Below are positions 54,972-61,105 of a stretch of 64,000 nucleotides of DNA, one piece after another. The stretch covers positions 1 to 64,000 of the forward strand of contig NZ_JAGSOH010000004.1 in the NCBI RefSeq assembly GCF_018139625.1. Direction: 5' to 3'. Each line of letters opens with the position of its first letter. Within the stretch, counting starts at the first letter, position 1. A program made the translations under genes and the position numbers. Below the pieces are notes generated by a model. The model was given only the letters and a program-made list of their open reading frames with translations. It did no database searches and was not told the DNA's origin. This stretch comes from Actinospica acidithermotolerans (GTDB lineage: Bacteria; Actinomycetota; Actinomycetes; Streptomycetales; Catenulisporaceae).

Positions 54972-56176
54972 GCAGTATGACCGGGCAACAGGTGACCGCG
55001 CGGGAGGCAGGCGCCCCGGGCGGCTTCGCCGCGGTCCGCGAGCGCGCGGTCCGCTCGGCCGGGCGCGCCTGGCCCGCGATGGCCGCCTACCTGCTCGTGC
55101 GGCTCGTCGGCACGCTGGTGTTCGGGCTGCTCTCCAGCGGCCACGGCTACGCGGCGCGCGGCGTGTTCGTGTTCGTCGACTCCGGCTGGTACGAGAAGAT
55201 CGCCGAGCGCGGCTACGACACGAAGATCTCGCCCGCCCTCTCGCCCTTCGCCTTCGACCCGCTCTACCCGGGCCTGATGGCGCTCGGGCACGCGATCACC
55301 GGCGGCCTGCTCAGCGTGACCGCGGTCGGCCTGGCGATCACCTGGGTCGCGGCCGTCGCGTGCTCCTGGGCGCTGTTCGAGATCGGCCGCCTGGTGCGCG
55401 ACGCCCGGACCGGCCTGATCTTCGCCGTGCTCTGGGCGCTGATGCCCTCGGCCGTGATCGAGGGCGCGCTCTACGCCGACACCCTCGCCATCTGCCTCAC
55501 CGCGTGGGCGCTCTACGCGCTGCTGCGCCGCTCCTGGATCACCGCGGGAATCCTCGCCTGCCTCGCCGGAGCCACCCGGCCGACCGCCGACGCCGTCGTG
55601 CTGACGGTCTGCGTCGCGGCGGTCGTCGAGATCGTCCGCGCGCGCCGCGCGGGGCAGCCGTTCACCTGGCGCCCGCTGATCGGCGCCGTCATCGCGCCGA
55701 TCGGAGCGATCGGCTTCCTGGCGTACGTCGCGTACCGCATGGGCAGCATCGGCGGCTACATGAAGGCGCAGAAGAAGTGGGGGACCGGCTTCGGCAACGC
55801 CGGCCAGGTCTTCCACCGGATCAAGCTCGGCATCGAGGGCACCGCGCACGGCTACGCCAACGGCCAGGCGCACGTCACGACGGCCGTCCTGCTGATCGTG
55901 CCGCTGCTGATCATCGTGATGCTCGTGCAGCGGCAGCGCTGGGAGCTGACGTTCTACACGATCGTGGTGGCCGCGATCGTCTACACGGCCATTCACGACT
56001 ACACGGTCGTGCCGCGCGAGATGCTCGCCGCGTTCCCGATCCTGCTCGCCCCCGCCGGATGGCTCTCGAAGATCAAGCGCCAGTGGATCGTCTGGGCGCT
56101 GATCGCGGTGCTCGCCGTGGCCGCCGGCTGGTATGCGCACTTCATCACCGTCGACGGCGGCCCCGGCTTCCCCTAG
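54968..56176 (+). CDS. Integral membrane mannosyltransferase-like protein (PIG-V family)
   Basis: A 402-residue protein with about nine helices. FVDSGWYEKIAERGYDTK followed by FAFDPLYPGLMALGHAI is the WDxxWY...FPLYP-type active-site loop of PIG-V/GT-C transferases (here with Ser before Gly-Trp-Tyr). WALMPSAVIEGALYADTLAI is also family-like. It probably uses a polyprenyl-phosphate sugar donor at the membrane. Starts at GTG overlapping a short upstream ORF; an in-frame ATG lies 9 nt later. The mobile element is inserted 9 nt after its stop. Confidence 0.75.
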   Translation: MSSMTGQQVTAREAGAPGGFAAVRERAVRSAGRAWPAMAAYLLVRLVGTLVFGLLSSGHGYAARGVFVFVDSGWYEKIAERGYDTKISPALSPFAFDPLYPGLMALGHAITGGLLSVTAVGLAITWVAAVACSWALFEIGRLVRDARTGLIFAVLWALMPSAVIEGALYADTLAICLTAWALYALLRRSWITAGILACLAGATRPTADAVVLTVCVAAVVEIVRARRAGQPFTWRPLIGAVIAPIGAIGFLAYVAYRMGSIGGYMKAQKKWGTGFGNAGQVFHRIKLGIEGTAHGYANGQAHVTTAVLLIVPLLIIVMLVQRQRWELTFYTIVVAAIVYTAIHDYTVVPREMLAAFPILLAPAGWLSKIKRQWIVWALIAVLAVAAGWYAHFITVDGGPGFP

Positions 56177-56181
56177 CCCGC

Positions 56182-56185
56182 CTAG
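56182..56185. repeat. Target-site duplication, left copy (CTAG)
   Basis: CTAG directly abuts the left terminal repeat and is repeated at 59646-59649. IS701-family elements characteristically duplicate a 4-bp CTAG-like target. Confidence 0.85.
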
Positions 56186-56240
56186 TACGGCAGTCGGACT
56201 TCGTGATCTGGCATTGGGCTGTGTGATGAGTGCGTAGCGG
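56186..56240 (+). repeat. Left terminal inverted repeat
   Basis: It begins TACGGCAGTCGGACT. Its match to the right end continues inward, weaker, to a shared GCGTAGCG word, giving a long two-part end that may contain separate transposase contacts. Confidence 0.88.
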
Positions 56241-56312
56241 GCTGCGTCGTCTCGCCGTGTCGGCGCCGAGTTGGCGCCATAGGCGGTGCTCGTCTGATCG
56301 CTCGTCTGTGCG

Positions 56313-56993
56313 TCAGTTTGAGATGCGGGCTTCGATGCCGTCGAGGAGGAACTCGAGGCCGATCCGGAAGGTCTCATCGGCGCTCAGGTGGGGGCCGCTG
56401 CGTACTGCCATGGCCAGCGCGGGGAATCGCCCTGTTGCGAAGGTCCGTTCCAGATACGGCCCGTAGGCGGTCTGGAACTGCTTGATGTCCATCCCGCTGG
56501 CCCGTTCGGCGCGTCGCTCGGCGATCTCCCGGCGTACCGCGCCGACCACGTACGCTCTGACCGCGGCGACCGCTGGGACGACGGTGTCTAGGTCGACACT
56601 GCCCATGGCGGCGAGCACGGCGTTCCCGGTGGCCAGCGTGTTCGGTCCGAGCTGGGGGCGCCCACCGATCAGGTCGGCGAGCCATTCGTGCTGATGGGCG
56701 GCCTGTCGGGTGGCTTCGGCAAGGGAGCGCAGTACCTGGCGCCAGTCGTCTCCGGTCGGCTGGATCTCGGCGTAGACCGTATCGAGCATCAGGTCGAGCA
56801 GTTCCTCTTTGGTGGCAATGTAGCCGTACAGCCGCATCGGTCCGACGTCCAGCGCCGCAGCCACCTTGCGTAGCGACACCGCGTCCAGGCCGTCCGCGTC
56901 GGCCAGTTGGATCGCCGCCCGGACGAGCCGCGCCCGGTTCAGCGGGGCCGGCACCGGTCGATCCGGCGGCTCCGGCCGCTCCCACACCACCAT
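56313..56993 (-). CDS. TetR-family transcriptional repressor (passenger gene)
   Basis: A 226-residue regulator. The N-terminal HTH (about 18-65) reads NRARLVRAAIQLADADGLDAVSLRKVAAALDVGPMRLYGYIATKEELLDLM, here cited by its key words LRKVAAALDVGPMRLYGY. The remaining helices form a TetR_C-type ligand domain (VRAYVVGAVRREIAERRAER). It is divergent from the monooxygenase with 85 nt between starts, and a perfect palindrome lies between them. This layout predicts repression of itself and the enzyme, released by the enzyme's substrate. Confidence 0.9.
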   Translation of the reverse strand: MVVWERPEPPDRPVPAPLNRARLVRAAIQLADADGLDAVSLRKVAAALDVGPMRLYGYIATKEELLDLMLDTVYAEIQPTGDDWRQVLRSLAEATRQAAHQHEWLADLIGGRPQLGPNTLATGNAVLAAMGSVDLDTVVPAVAAVRAYVVGAVRREIAERRAERASGMDIKQFQTAYGPYLERTFATGRFPALAMAVRSGPHLSADETFRIGLEFLLDGIEARISN

Positions 56994-57044
56994 GCCGCCG
57001 ACCCTACCGCGGCCCGCGTCTTACAGCGGCTTCAACCGATACGG

Positions 57045-57060
57045 TGTATTGATCAATACA
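57045..57060. promoter_or_regulatory. Operator palindrome between tetR-type gene and monooxygenase
   Basis: TGTATTGATCAATACA is a perfect 16-bp palindrome, AT-rich against a GC-rich background. It sits 18 nt before the monooxygenase GTG and 51 nt before the repressor ATG, over the expected promoters. The TetR-family protein next to it is the likely ligand. Confidence 0.8.
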
Positions 57061-57078
57061 GTGAATCGGGAGGGAATC

Positions 57079-58188
57079 GTGGACATCGCCATCGTCGGAG
57101 CAGGCTTGGGGGGCCTGGCCCTTGCCCGCGTGCTGCACGTCAACGGCATTGACGCCGTCGTATACGAACGAGAAGCGTGGCGCGGTGCGCGCGGCCAGGG
57201 CGGCATGCTCGATATCCACTCCGGCCAGCGGGCGCTGCGCGCGGCCGGTCTGATCGACGAGTTCTACGCGATCGCCCGTGGTGAAGGCCAGGACATGCGT
57301 CTTCTCACCCCTGATGGCACCCTGCTGCTCCAGGAGGACACGCCCGACGACGCCCCGCTTCTGCGACCCGAGGTCGACCGCGCCGATCTGCGCAACCTGC
57401 TGCTCGATTCCCTCCCCGAAGACGTGGTGCGCTGGGGGCACGCGTTCGCATTCGCCGATAAAGGCCTGCTGCACTTCGCCGACAGCAGCAGTGCGGCCTA
57501 TGACCTGCTGGTCGGCGCGGACGGCGCGTCCTCCCGGGTCCGCGCGCTGCTCACCGACGCCCGCCCGGTGCACATCGGCAAGAACGTCGTCGAGATCGGC
57601 ATTCCCGATATCGACCGCACGCACCCCGACCTCGCGGCGATGGTCGGGCGCGGCACCTACTGGGTGCTCGGCGACGGAATATCCCTGGCGGCGCAGCGCA
57701 ACGGCGACGGTCGCGTTCGCATCGGCGTGAGCTTCTACAACACCGCAGAGGATTGGTTCGCCACCAGCGGGATCCCGTTCGACGACCCCGCCGCCGCCCG
57801 GGCGCGGCTGATCGAACTTCTCCCCGGCTGGGACCCACGGATCACCGCGCTGATCGAGTCCTGCGACGACACGATCATGCCGCGGTCGAGCACCTCTCTC
57901 CCGATCGGCCTGACCTGGCCGTCGACGCCAGGCGCCACGCTGCTCGGCGATGCCGCGCACCTGATGCCGGCGGTGGGGCAGGGCGCCAACATGGCGCTGC
58001 TCGACGGCGCCGTGCTCGGTCTCGCACTGGCCGCGCACCCGCACGACTTTCCCGCCGCCGTCAAAGAATACGAACGCGAGATGTTCGAACGCACCGGCGC
58101 CGCCGCCCGGAAGTCCGCGGACATGCATGAACTGCTGAGCTCGCCGGACGCCGCCCAGAAGATGCTCGCATTCTTCCAACCCGGCTGA
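57079..58188 (+). CDS. TetX-like FAD-dependent monooxygenase (passenger gene)
   Basis: A 369-residue class A flavin monooxygenase. IVGAGLGGLALARVL (GxGxxG at 7-12) with Glu30 binds FAD, LVGADGASSRVR is the DG motif, and LLGDAAHLMPAVGQGANMAL (289-308) is the GD motif. Beyond generic features it matches TetX-type enzymes in GGMLDIHSGQRALRAAGL, RPEVDRADLRNLLLDSL, RIGVSFYNTAEDW, GWDPRITALI and YEREMFERTG. TetX is 388 residues. It probably hydroxylates an aromatic polyketide-like or xenobiotic compound; tetracycline is only a candidate. GGGAGGGA precedes the GTG. Confidence 0.88.
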   Translation: MDIAIVGAGLGGLALARVLHVNGIDAVVYEREAWRGARGQGGMLDIHSGQRALRAAGLIDEFYAIARGEGQDMRLLTPDGTLLLQEDTPDDAPLLRPEVDRADLRNLLLDSLPEDVVRWGHAFAFADKGLLHFADSSSAAYDLLVGADGASSRVRALLTDARPVHIGKNVVEIGIPDIDRTHPDLAAMVGRGTYWVLGDGISLAAQRNGDGRVRIGVSFYNTAEDWFATSGIPFDDPAAARARLIELLPGWDPRITALIESCDDTIMPRSSTSLPIGLTWPSTPGATLLGDAAHLMPAVGQGANMALLDGAVLGLALAAHPHDFPAAVKEYEREMFERTGAAARKSADMHELLSSPDAAQKMLAFFQPG

Positions 58189-58190
58189 CG

Positions 58191-59612
58191 ATGACCAGAC
58201 ACGACCAGGAAACCGGTCGTCCAGCCCGGCCGCCCCGTGATCATCATGGTGCGATTCACGCTGAATGCGGGGCGGCCCACACCGCCAGCGCCGAGTTAAG
58301 CGGGTTCGAGGCGCACCTCGCGGAACTGTCCGGACTGATCGCGCCGTGCTTCTCCCGACGCGACCTGCGCTCGAACGCGAGCGCGTACATCCTTGGGCTG
58401 CTGTGCCCGGGCACGGCCGGCAACTGCTGGTCGCGCGCGCAGGCGGCCGGACACTCCCGACCCCACCGGCTCCAGCACCTGTTGTCCGGGGCGGTGTGGG
58501 ACGAGGACGAGGTGCGCGATGCCGTGCGCAGCTTCGTCGCCTGCCACCTGGGCGAAGGCGGCGTGCTGATCTTCGACGAGACCGGCGATCTGAAGAAGGG
58601 CACGGCCACGGCAGGAGCCGGCCGACAGTACACCGGCACCGCGGGCAGGATCGAGAATGCGGTGGTCGCGGTCTACGCGACCTACGCCACGCCGCTCGGG
58701 CACGCCCTGATCGACCGGGAGCTGCACGTGCAAAAGGAGTGGTTCGCAGATCCCGAGCGGATGGCGAAGGCCGGGTTCGAGCCCGACCACGCGTTCGCCA
58801 CCAAACCGCAACTCGCCAAGACGCAGGCCGAACGCGCCCTCGAAGCCGGGCTCGCCCCCGCCTGGGCCACCGGCGACGAGGTCTACGGACGCAGCAGCGA
58901 ACTACGCGCACTGTTCGAGGCACGCGGCATCGGCTACGTCTTCGCCGTCGGATGCGACTTCCAGCTCACCACCTCCGGACACCGGAAGATGCGCGCCGAC
59001 CAGGCCCTACACCTAGTCGAGCCGCACGGGTGGAACCGGCGCTCGGCAGGCGCCGGATCGAAAGGGCCGCGCCACTACGACTGGGCGCGGTTCGCAACCG
59101 CCTCCCACCGCCACCAGTTGCTGATCCGTCGCTCGATCAGCACCGGCGAGCTCGCCTACTACCTCGCGTTCGTGCCCGACCACTATGTCTGTTCCCTGAC
59201 CGACCTGGTCAAGGCCGCCGGCGCGAGATGGGCGGTGGAAGACGACTTCCAAGACGCCAAGCAGGCCGTCGGCCTCGACGGCACCCAGGTGCGCGCCTAC
59301 CGGGCGTGGAAACGCCACGTCACCCTCGTGATGGCCGCCTACGCGCTCCTGGCCGTCACCGCCGCAAAGGCCAGGGCCGCGCACCCGGCCCCCGTACTGC
59401 CGGAGAACGACGAGCAGCATGCACCGGAAGACTGCGGCATGATCGCGCTGACCGTTCCCGAGCTCCAGCGGCTACTGCCCGTCCTGCTACCCGAGCATAA
59501 CCACGGGAGAACCGATAGAAGCGTCTGTCTTGCCTGGTCCACCTGGCGCCGACGCCACCAGGCCCGAGCCCGCTGGCACCACTACCGCCGACGCTACGCG
59601 CTGATTGCGTAA
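58191..59612 (+). CDS. IS701-family transposase
   Basis: A 473-residue DDE transposase. The catalytic triad is Asp129 (LIFDETGDLKKGTATAG), Asp229 (WATGDEVYG) and Glu350 (RWAVEDDFQDAKQAVGLD), and RQYTGTAGRIENAVVAVY is the family signature. Length is slightly above the usual 400-440; the first 30 residues are not family-like. Its ATG is 2 nt after the monooxygenase stop with no good ribosome-binding site, so translation is probably coupled. The 3' end runs into the right terminal repeat. Confidence 0.95.
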   Translation: MTRHDQETGRPARPPRDHHGAIHAECGAAHTASAELSGFEAHLAELSGLIAPCFSRRDLRSNASAYILGLLCPGTAGNCWSRAQAAGHSRPHRLQHLLSGAVWDEDEVRDAVRSFVACHLGEGGVLIFDETGDLKKGTATAGAGRQYTGTAGRIENAVVAVYATYATPLGHALIDRELHVQKEWFADPERMAKAGFEPDHAFATKPQLAKTQAERALEAGLAPAWATGDEVYGRSSELRALFEARGIGYVFAVGCDFQLTTSGHRKMRADQALHLVEPHGWNRRSAGAGSKGPRHYDWARFATASHRHQLLIRRSISTGELAYYLAFVPDHYVCSLTDLVKAAGARWAVEDDFQDAKQAVGLDGTQVRAYRAWKRHVTLVMAAYALLAVTAAKARAAHPAPVLPENDEQHAPEDCGMIALTVPELQRLLPVLLPEHNHGRTDRSVCLAWSTWRRRHQARARWHHYRRRYALIA

Positions 59613-59645
59613 CCCGATGTCAGATCACGAAGTCCGACTGCCGTG
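59591..59645 (-). repeat. Right terminal inverted repeat
   Basis: Reverse complement begins CACGGCAGTCGGACT and matches the left end at 24 of the outer 25 positions. Its inner part overlaps the last codons of the transposase. Confidence 0.88.
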
Positions 59646-59649
59646 CTAG
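59646..59649. repeat. Target-site duplication, right copy (CTAG)
   Basis: Second CTAG copy, next to the right inverted repeat. Removing the element plus one copy restores a short palindrome, CCGCCTA-ggccgc-TAGGCGG, between two convergent genes. Confidence 0.85.
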
Positions 59650-59653
59650 GCCG

Positions 59654-61105
59654 CTAGGCGGACGGGGTGATCTTCAGCACCGGGAACGGGATCTCCTTAA
59701 GGTGCCCGTTCTCCCAGCTCTCCGGCAGGCGCACGCTCAGCAAGTCGGCGCGCTGCTCGTACTCCAACGGGATCGGATCCCACTCGCCGCTGTGCCCGAG
59801 CAGTTCGATCCGCTCGATCCGGCGCTGGTAGAGCGTCAGGTCCGCGCCGAGCGAACGGATGTCCATCCGGCCGTTCTCCGGCGCGGCCAGCCCGATCACG
59901 TACAGGCACTCCTCCCGCGTCGTGAACCGGAAGTCGTGCGGACCGTACTGCTGCCGCTTGAACTCGGAGAAGCCGCCGTCGGCCGTCTTCGTCGGTCCCT
60001 CGCCGAACACGGCCCAGGGGCGCGACGCGTAGATCGCCTCGCCGTTCACGGCCAGCCAGGAGCCGAGCGTCCGCAGCAGCTCGGCCTCGTACTCGACGAT
60101 CGAGCCGTCTGCCTTCGGGCCGACGTTCAGCAGAAGGCTGCCGTTCTTGGACACGACGTCGATCAGTGTGCCCGCGACCTCCTGCGCGGTCTTGTACTCC
60201 TGGCCCTCGACGTGGCACCAGGCGTTGCGTGCGATCGACGTGCATGCTTGCCACGGCTCCGGCCGCAGCACCGCGCTGGAGCCGCGCTCGATGTCCGCGA
60301 CGGCCGTCCCGGCCGGGAACGCGCCGTCCTTGTACGAGATCACCGAGCCGAGCCCGGCGGCCTCCAGCCGGTTGTAGTAGTGCGCGGCGAGGCGCGGCAG
60401 GTAGGGCCGGTACGCCGGCCGGTGGATCCACCAGTCGAAGTAGAGCATCTGCGGCTGGTACGCGTCGATCAGCTCGATCGTGTGTGCGGCCCACTCATCG
60501 AGGAACTGCTTGCTCGGCGGCATCTCCTGCGGTTGCGCCGGGCCGTAGAGCGAGGCGTACCTCCCCGAACGCACGTCCGAGTCGAAGGTCATGCCGCCGT
60601 TGAGGAACCACCACAGCTCGGCGCGGTGCCAGGAGACGCCGAAGACCATCGACCGGTCCCGTACCGCGCGCGAGAGCTCGCCGACGACGTCCCGCTTCGG
60701 GCCCATCCGGGCCGCGTTCCACGGGTTGAGCTCGCTGCGGTACATCGCGAAGCCGTCGTGGTGCTCGGCGACGGGGACGACGTACTGCGCCCCGGCCGAG
60801 CGGAACAGCGTCGCCCACGCGTCCGGGTCGAAGTTCTCCCCGGTCAGCATCGGGATGAAGTCCTTGAAGCCGAACTCCGACTGCGGGCCGTAGGTCTTCC
60901 GGTGGTGCTCGTACTCCGGCTTGCCGGCGCGGTACATGTTGCGCGCGTACCACTCGTTGCCGAACGCGGGCACGCTGTACGGACCCCAGTGCACGAAGAT
61001 GCCGAGCTTGGCGTCGCGGAACCAGTCAGGAACCCGGTACCCGGCCAGCGATTCCCAGGTCGGCAGGAACGGCCCCCCGGGGACTTCGGGTCCGGGGGCG
61101 GTCAT
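59654..61105 (-). CDS. GH29 alpha-L-fucosidase
   Basis: A 483-residue glycoside hydrolase. WFRDAKLGIFVHWGPYSVPAFGNEWYARNMY, the YVVPVAEHHDGFAMY block (His115-116) and MLYFDWWIH with nucleophile Asp224 are GH29 hallmarks; GSLLLNVGPKADGSI follows, then a beta-sandwich domain. There is no signal peptide, so it should act in the cytoplasm on imported fucosides. It is coupled to the upstream GH3 gene by an ATGA overlap. The transposable element lies 8 nt beyond its stop. Confidence 0.93.
   Translation of the reverse strand: MTAPGPEVPGGPFLPTWESLAGYRVPDWFRDAKLGIFVHWGPYSVPAFGNEWYARNMYRAGKPEYEHHRKTYGPQSEFGFKDFIPMLTGENFDPDAWATLFRSAGAQYVVPVAEHHDGFAMYRSELNPWNAARMGPKRDVVGELSRAVRDRSMVFGVSWHRAELWWFLNGGMTFDSDVRSGRYASLYGPAQPQEMPPSKQFLDEWAAHTIELIDAYQPQMLYFDWWIHRPAYRPYLPRLAAHYYNRLEAAGLGSVISYKDGAFPAGTAVADIERGSSAVLRPEPWQACTSIARNAWCHVEGQEYKTAQEVAGTLIDVVSKNGSLLLNVGPKADGSIVEYEAELLRTLGSWLAVNGEAIYASRPWAVFGEGPTKTADGGFSEFKRQQYGPHDFRFTTREECLYVIGLAAPENGRMDIRSLGADLTLYQRRIERIELLGHSGEWDPIPLEYEQRADLLSVRLPESWENGHLKEIPFPVLKITPSA

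Follow-up and report, generated by a model that had tools for sequence, protein, structure and literature searches.

A TetR-monooxygenase gene pair captured by an IS701-family element of Actinospica acidithermotolerans and its possible link to transposase expression

We analysed a 64,000-nucleotide stretch of the Actinospica acidithermotolerans contig NZ_JAGSOH010000004.1 (hereafter the window), in which a gene for a TetR-family repressor stands divergently from a gene for a FAD-dependent class A monooxygenase, itself followed at once by a transposase gene. A sequence-only reading of this locus had proposed that a small molecule releasing the repressor would raise both detoxification and transposition. 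We found that a single IS701-family element of 3460 bp (3.46 kb; 56186-59645) encloses all three genes (Table 1). The transposase scored 348.7 bits against the IS701 model (cut-off 150), and its ORF is full length with D129, D229 and E350 in place. The Y of the YREK signature is absent (AGARWAVEDDFQDAK, with A at the Y position, R346, E350 and K357), as is usual in the IS701 family (PMC2266710).

Table 1. Coordinates of the features identified in and around the element (positions in the window).
Feature	Position	Strand	Evidence
Left target-site duplication CTAG	56182..56185	.	Direct reading; same as right-border CTAG
Left end, inverted copy of the element's right end	56186..56239	+	Inverted repeat and blastn
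Cargo: tetR-monooxygenase pair with native 3' flanks at both sides	56240..58226	.	Flank matches to L013, L014
TetR-family repressor, 226 aa, TetR_N + TetR_C_1	56313..56993	-	Pfam
Predicted operator O1, CGATACGGTGTATTG	57037..57051	.	15-bp consensus
16-bp palindrome TGTATTGATCAATACA (O1 right half + 2 nt + O2 left half)	57045..57060	.	
Predicted operator O2, CAATACAGTGAATCG, 17 bp from O1	57054..57068	.	15-bp consensus
FAD-dependent class A monooxygenase, 369 aa, GTG start, GGGAGG upstream	57079..58188	+	Pfam PF01494
TGA-CG-ATG junction, monooxygenase stop / transposase start	58186..58193	+	Direct reading
IS701-family DDE transposase ORF, 473 aa	58191..59612	+	NF033540, Pfam DDE_5
Conserved leader hairpin, 10-bp perfect stem, ancestral start in loop	58228..58277	+	Folding, covariation
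Ancestral GTG start position, now GCG	58251..58253	+	Alignment A1 with C307, L043, others
Right terminal inverted repeat	59592..59645	-	Repeat search
Right target-site duplication CTAG	59646..59649	.	Direct reading

The ends of the element form an inverted repeat identical at 26 of 28 positions, with CTAG on both sides; the 4-bp target duplication expected of IS701 was found here and also, as CTAG, at a simple IS701 copy in the same genome (C307). Insertion took place at CTAG between two convergent host genes. In the congeners G015 and G019 these two flanking genes adjoin each other and the element is absent; the comparison was one of gene order, not of individual bases. With the element removed, joining 56170-56185 to 59650-59665 gives CCGCCTAG-gccg-CTAGGCGG, whose arms pair perfectly over 8 bp between the convergent genes, and the target of insertion may have been a terminator-like hairpin.

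Could an ordinary IS simply have come to lie beside a host tetR-monooxygenase pair? Such pairs are a common chromosomal unit in the same order, and many Streptomyces-like and same-family genomes hold the TetR-FMO pair with the same operators and without a transposase. Chance neighbourhood is nevertheless contradicted by the terminal repeats and CTAG copies that enclose all three genes, by the left repeat, which copies 53 nt of the right end, and by the empty locus in the two congeners, and we consider it very improbable. Since the terminal repeats and CTAG of one IS enclose a passenger TetR and a passenger monooxygenase that are not needed for transposition, the element is an IS701-family insertion sequence of the transporter type (tIS), loaded with a TetR/monooxygenase detoxification pair. 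Regulator and enzyme are transposon cargo, not genes neighbouring an IS. As to its movement as a unit, we found only one copy of the cargo element in the genome, besides the empty locus in congeners. A transposase scan of 84,980 species genomes returned no relative above 52% identity, and the exact element is therefore known only here. Relatives retrieved in a plasmid search were all below 60% identity, and an Rfam search of the element gave no match.

The repressor scored above the Pfam gathering thresholds for both TetR_N (28.2 bits, cut-off 24) and TetR_C_1 (73.7 bits, cut-off 21), and its closest PDB match was SimReg2 (2y2z, E = 4e-38), followed by 5ojx, ActR and TetR. By sequence similarity, it is nearest to ligand-responsive, antibiotic-sensing repressors (SimReg2, ActR, TetR). 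The exact 16-bp palindrome described earlier at the divergent promoter was confirmed, and is the sole AT-rich one among the seven perfect 16-bp palindromes in the window. It lies in the divergent promoter, but is not itself the operator unit: it is best read as the junction of two predicted 15-bp operators. The TetR-type operator unit, drawn from 72 sites in the window and relatives, is a 15-bp imperfect palindrome with the consensus CGATACAGTGTATCG. In about 25 cargo-only relatives, the intergenic region has two or three copies of it spaced by 17 bp, sometimes 18. Twin predicted operators are thus conserved between the divergent tetR and monooxygenase genes.

The monooxygenase is closest in the PDB to AbsH3 (6n04, E = 1.6e-93), with Tet(X7) at E = 1.5e-45. 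Membership in the Tet(X) tetracycline destructases was rejected, the score against the NCBIfam Tet(X) model being 148.8 bits for a cut-off of 750. A hairpin 3' of the monooxygenase gene was considered as a terminator and dropped, as it folded at -9.1 kcal/mol with a z of 0.46, no better than shuffles.

The left end of the element reveals how the cargo was probably acquired. An ungapped count (20/35) was at most suggestive of its origin from the right end; blastn then supported this origin, with 83% identity between 56187-56239 and the inverted right end over 53 nt (E = 1.2e-9). The copy includes the last transposase codons, which give RYALIT on its minus strand where the right end has RRYALIA; the simple C307 IS has a short terminal repeat only. 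Inside this end, 56240-56330 matched the TetR 3' flank of the chromosomal relative L013 (69%), and from 56248 that of the chromosomal relative L014 also matched (73%). On the other side of the cargo, 58189-58226 is the native 3' flank of the monooxygenase gene, 33 of its 38 bases being identical in L013 by hand count, and IS homology begins at 58228. With its left end a right-end copy and native flanks at 56240 and 58226, the element is bounded by two right-type ends. We infer that a chromosomal tetR-monooxygenase pair was probably once bracketed by two IS copies in inverted orientation, and that one IS copy then shrank to its end. Furthermore, the old left end persists, decayed or intact, just upstream of the leader in five relatives (L054, L219, L075, L061 and L105), which fits capture through use of an outer end. 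We regard the anatomy, an IS701 transporter element with a captured TetR-monooxygenase cargo and twin operators, as close to certain.

The transposase start had been placed 2 nt past the monooxygenase stop, and the junction indeed reads TGA (58186-58188), CG, ATG (58191-58193). The accompanying claim, that the transposase has no clear ribosome-binding site or promoter of its own, fared less evenly. No Shine-Dalgarno sequence was found at ATG 58191, and a scan that covers Streptomyces-type promoters poorly found no sigma70-like promoter for the transposase. However, the ORF start at 58191 is itself misleading, because 58189-58226 is monooxygenase flank and 58227-58253 is IS leader, which is normally untranslated. 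In C307 and nearly all aligned relatives the transposase starts at a GTG, which is GCG in the present element, leaving ATG 58191 as the sole canonical start before the core domain; no in-frame ATG, GTG or TTG substitutes for the lost GTG ahead of that domain. This ATG is absent from the homologous monooxygenase flanks compared, and it may be accidental, as the 21-codon extension into the leader would be open by chance in most GC-rich sequence.

The leader of this IS701 subgroup holds a conserved hairpin. An alignment of 25 leaders yielded an 11-pair stem with the GTG start in the loop, in which 91% of cells were paired (32-55% in slid controls) and six pairs had changed on both sides, and the motif is kept in 104 of 133 distinct transposase 5' regions. 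In the present element the stem is kept and the loop GTG has become GCG; the hairpin folds at -30.8 kcal/mol with a folding z of -2.4, the values of z being -3.5 for C307 and -6.4 for L057. The hairpin may work as DNA, or else as RNA, where it would hide the start codon on messages that read through. The genome also holds a second IS701 left end, L009 (G000:C307:30937-31086), truncated to about 150 bp and including the leader hairpin; unrelated sequence adjoins it, and the intact simple IS is about 650 bp away.

These features can be assembled into the following sequence of events. The TetR on its twin operators would hold the monooxygenase gene off until a small molecule released it; transcription of the monooxygenase gene would then start and continue into the IS body. 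After stopping at the monooxygenase TGA, ribosomes would re-initiate 2 nt on, at ATG 58191, and pass through the leader hairpin, the site of the transposase start in relatives. With its own GTG lost, the transposase would be made solely on the monooxygenase message, in which case mobility would follow exposure to the inducer. In native gene pairs, re-initiation works at spacings of -4, -1 and +2 nt and is lost by about 20-38 nt (PMC10666635); the +2-nt junction falls within these distances. We judge it an even chance that synthesis of the transposase depends on re-initiation on the monooxygenase message and so responds to the ligand of the repressor. Chemically conditioned transposition, as read from the sequence, is plausible but unproven.

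Two further elements, both enclosed by matching target duplications (CTAA and CTAG, respectively), also have a fused transposase start. In L209, the order is TetR, a 22-bp perfect palindrome, SDR and transposase; the SDR stop overlaps the transposase GTG by 4 nt (GTGA), the hairpin is gone, and the transposase, at 388 aa, has a shorter C-terminal end. In L185, a patatin gene precedes the TetR gene, whose TGA is followed immediately by the transposase ATG (TGAATG), and the hairpin is lost. The two fusions are independent of each other and of that in the 56186-59645 element. Stop-start spacing is within the range of termination-reinitiation in all three (+2 nt here, a 4-nt overlap in L209 and 0 nt in L185), and most other plus-strand cargo genes stop further upstream, e.g. 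at -47 to -60 nt. Although the numbers are small, each of the three elements comes from a different genome, encodes a TetR and has its transposase start joined to a cargo gene that is associated with TetR. Against coupling, the hairpin and an uncoupled start are kept in most cargo elements, so coupling is not the rule of the family; the L209 transposase is short; ATG 58191 has no Shine-Dalgarno and is possibly accidental; and a single copy of the element is known, so selection on the fused start is not evidenced. Only tentatively, then, do we extend the proposal to several actinobacterial IS701 lineages in which loss of the start and fusion to TetR cargo would have wired the transposase to a chemical-sensing operon.

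The main rival to coupling is a silent, trans-mobilised copy, in which the ancestral start was lost at or after capture, the ATG is accidental and the unit is, or was, moved in trans by a simple IS701. The change of GTG to GCG and the finding of the cargo element in one copy only agree with this, and the same genome offers a candidate: C307, an intact simple relative of 1513 bp with CTAG duplications, a similar end (TACGGCAGTCGGGCTTCGCGG) and a transposase 72% identical, could have moved the unit. A full-length ORF with its DDE residues present speaks against silence, as do the two independent elements that fuse the start to a TetR-associated gene, which suggest that such fusions are tolerated or useful. 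We hold a silent transposase to be possible, though we would not favour it.

We also weighed expression of the transposase independently of the cargo promoter: transcription would begin within the IS leader or the 3' end of the monooxygenase gene, and translation at an internal or non-standard codon. In several relatives, just ~60 bp lie between the end and the hairpin region of simple copies, and this stretch must hold a promoter; part of this leader is kept here, and the poor coverage of Streptomyces-type promoters by our scan leaves room for one. The left-end-proximal part of the leader is missing from the 56186-59645 element, however, and neither a sigma70-like promoter nor an in-frame replacement for the lost GTG before the core domain was found, which makes this explanation unlikely.

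Relatives of the transposase were surveyed across the order and, within one genus (Streptomyces, by named relatives), in 393 genomes. By its transposase, the IS701 subgroup is present in 73 of these 393 genomes. Simple elements measure about 1.4-1.5 kb and cargo elements 1.7-4 kb (ends were located for many), the cargo slot lying between the left end and the transposase gene. We catalogued 59 cargo elements, some of which are copies within one genome; 47 have identical 4-bp flanks, a figure that is somewhat favourable because the end finder rewards matching flanks. Independently of flank matching, whole-unit movement in relatives follows from identical or same-size copies at different sites in four genomes (G049, G235, G361 and G510): L101/L102 and L194/L195 are identical with different duplications, L050/L130 are identical, and L196/L197 are of the same size.

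According to Pfam and NCBIfam, the cargo comprises about 20 gene families plus several unknowns: PemK-like, YdhR/ABM, methyltransferase, AAA_33 kinase, DUF5946, glyoxalase/VOC, GNAT, TetR + DUF6069, TetR + zinc alcohol dehydrogenase, mycothiol transferase-like, DUF5958, SUKH, APH(6)-like and CPT-like kinases, LysE, TetR + SDR, patatin + TetR, HxlR + DoxX, and pentapeptide repeat. The APH(6) and CPT matches fall below NCBI naming cut-offs and far above Pfam gathering thresholds, and are thus superfamily members, not proven resistance genes. Different cargo was found on transposases 85-94% identical, so cargo turns over faster than the transposase, an argument that rests on pairwise transposase identities. 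The subgroup appears to be a large, apparently undescribed actinobacterial group of carriers of exchangeable, often detoxification-type genes.

Several members of the subgroup show further peculiarities. PemK/MazF-like genes are the commonest cargo, in divergent orientation (L043, L057, L101, L168, L182, L224 and others), with no antitoxin gene evident alongside. In G510, L196 and L197 are 2297-bp SUKH-cargo copies, and L198 is a shorter, 2023-bp copy with its cargo gene partly deleted, possibly a step to cargo loss. L169 (G313) consists of two adjoining cargo elements that together resemble a 4.25-kb CTAA-flanked unit, possibly a cargo doubling. The simple relatives L114, L115 and L126 have unusually long, near-perfect inverted arms (at least 95 bp at each end), and in L212 (G314), which measures 3.7 kb, the cargo slot is occupied by another transposase gene that looks unrelated to the first.

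Compared with known systems, the regulatory region recalls tetR-tetA, in which a repressor gene and an efflux-pump gene diverge from the adjacent palindromic operators tetO1 and tetO2. Both have a divergent repressor/detoxification gene arrangement, two adjacent palindromic operators and a TetR_C_1-family repressor; the operator sequence differs, and the present element encodes a monooxygenase, not an efflux pump. This monooxygenase belongs to the same class A flavoprotein group as AbsH3 and Tet(X), unlike the latter scoring far below the Tet(X) model cut-off. Known resistance transposons usually keep control of the resistance gene and control of movement separate. If the coupling proposed here is true, one repressor would act over both; exposure to the compound would raise detoxification and the mobility of the detoxification gene together, and the gene would spread when needed.

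ISPpu9 likewise has a structured leader where translation of its transposase begins, and this 5'-UTR structure is reported to control the transposase (PMC8450116); the IS701 hairpin differs in being predicted by covariation alone. Within the IS701 family, the element shares the transposase family, the 4-bp CTAG duplication and the missing Y of YREK, whereas at 3460 bp with cargo it departs from a published range of 1400-1550 bp without reported passenger genes, a range that describes earlier members and is not a strict criterion (PMC2266710). Passengers between the left terminal repeat and the transposase gene, the same slot as here, are known from the modular elements (tIS) and mobile insertion cassettes of IS231, which carry resistance, virulence or metabolism genes (PMC2266710). 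IS231, however, is a subgroup of the IS4 family, duplicates 10-12 bp of its target and is nearly confined to the Bacillus cereus group (PMC2266710), whereas the present elements are IS701, duplicate 4 bp, reside in actinobacteria and, in three cases, have the transposase start fused to the cargo. A 2008 survey knew modular cargo from no IS family other than IS231 and remarked that nobody had searched for it systematically (PMC2266710), and cargo carriage by IS701 is apparently undescribed in the literature consulted. Filled by some 20 or more gene families, including APH(6)-, CPT-, GNAT-, VOC- and LysE-like members, the IS701 cargo slot may be one of the ways in which resistance-type genes travel among antibiotic-producing soil bacteria.
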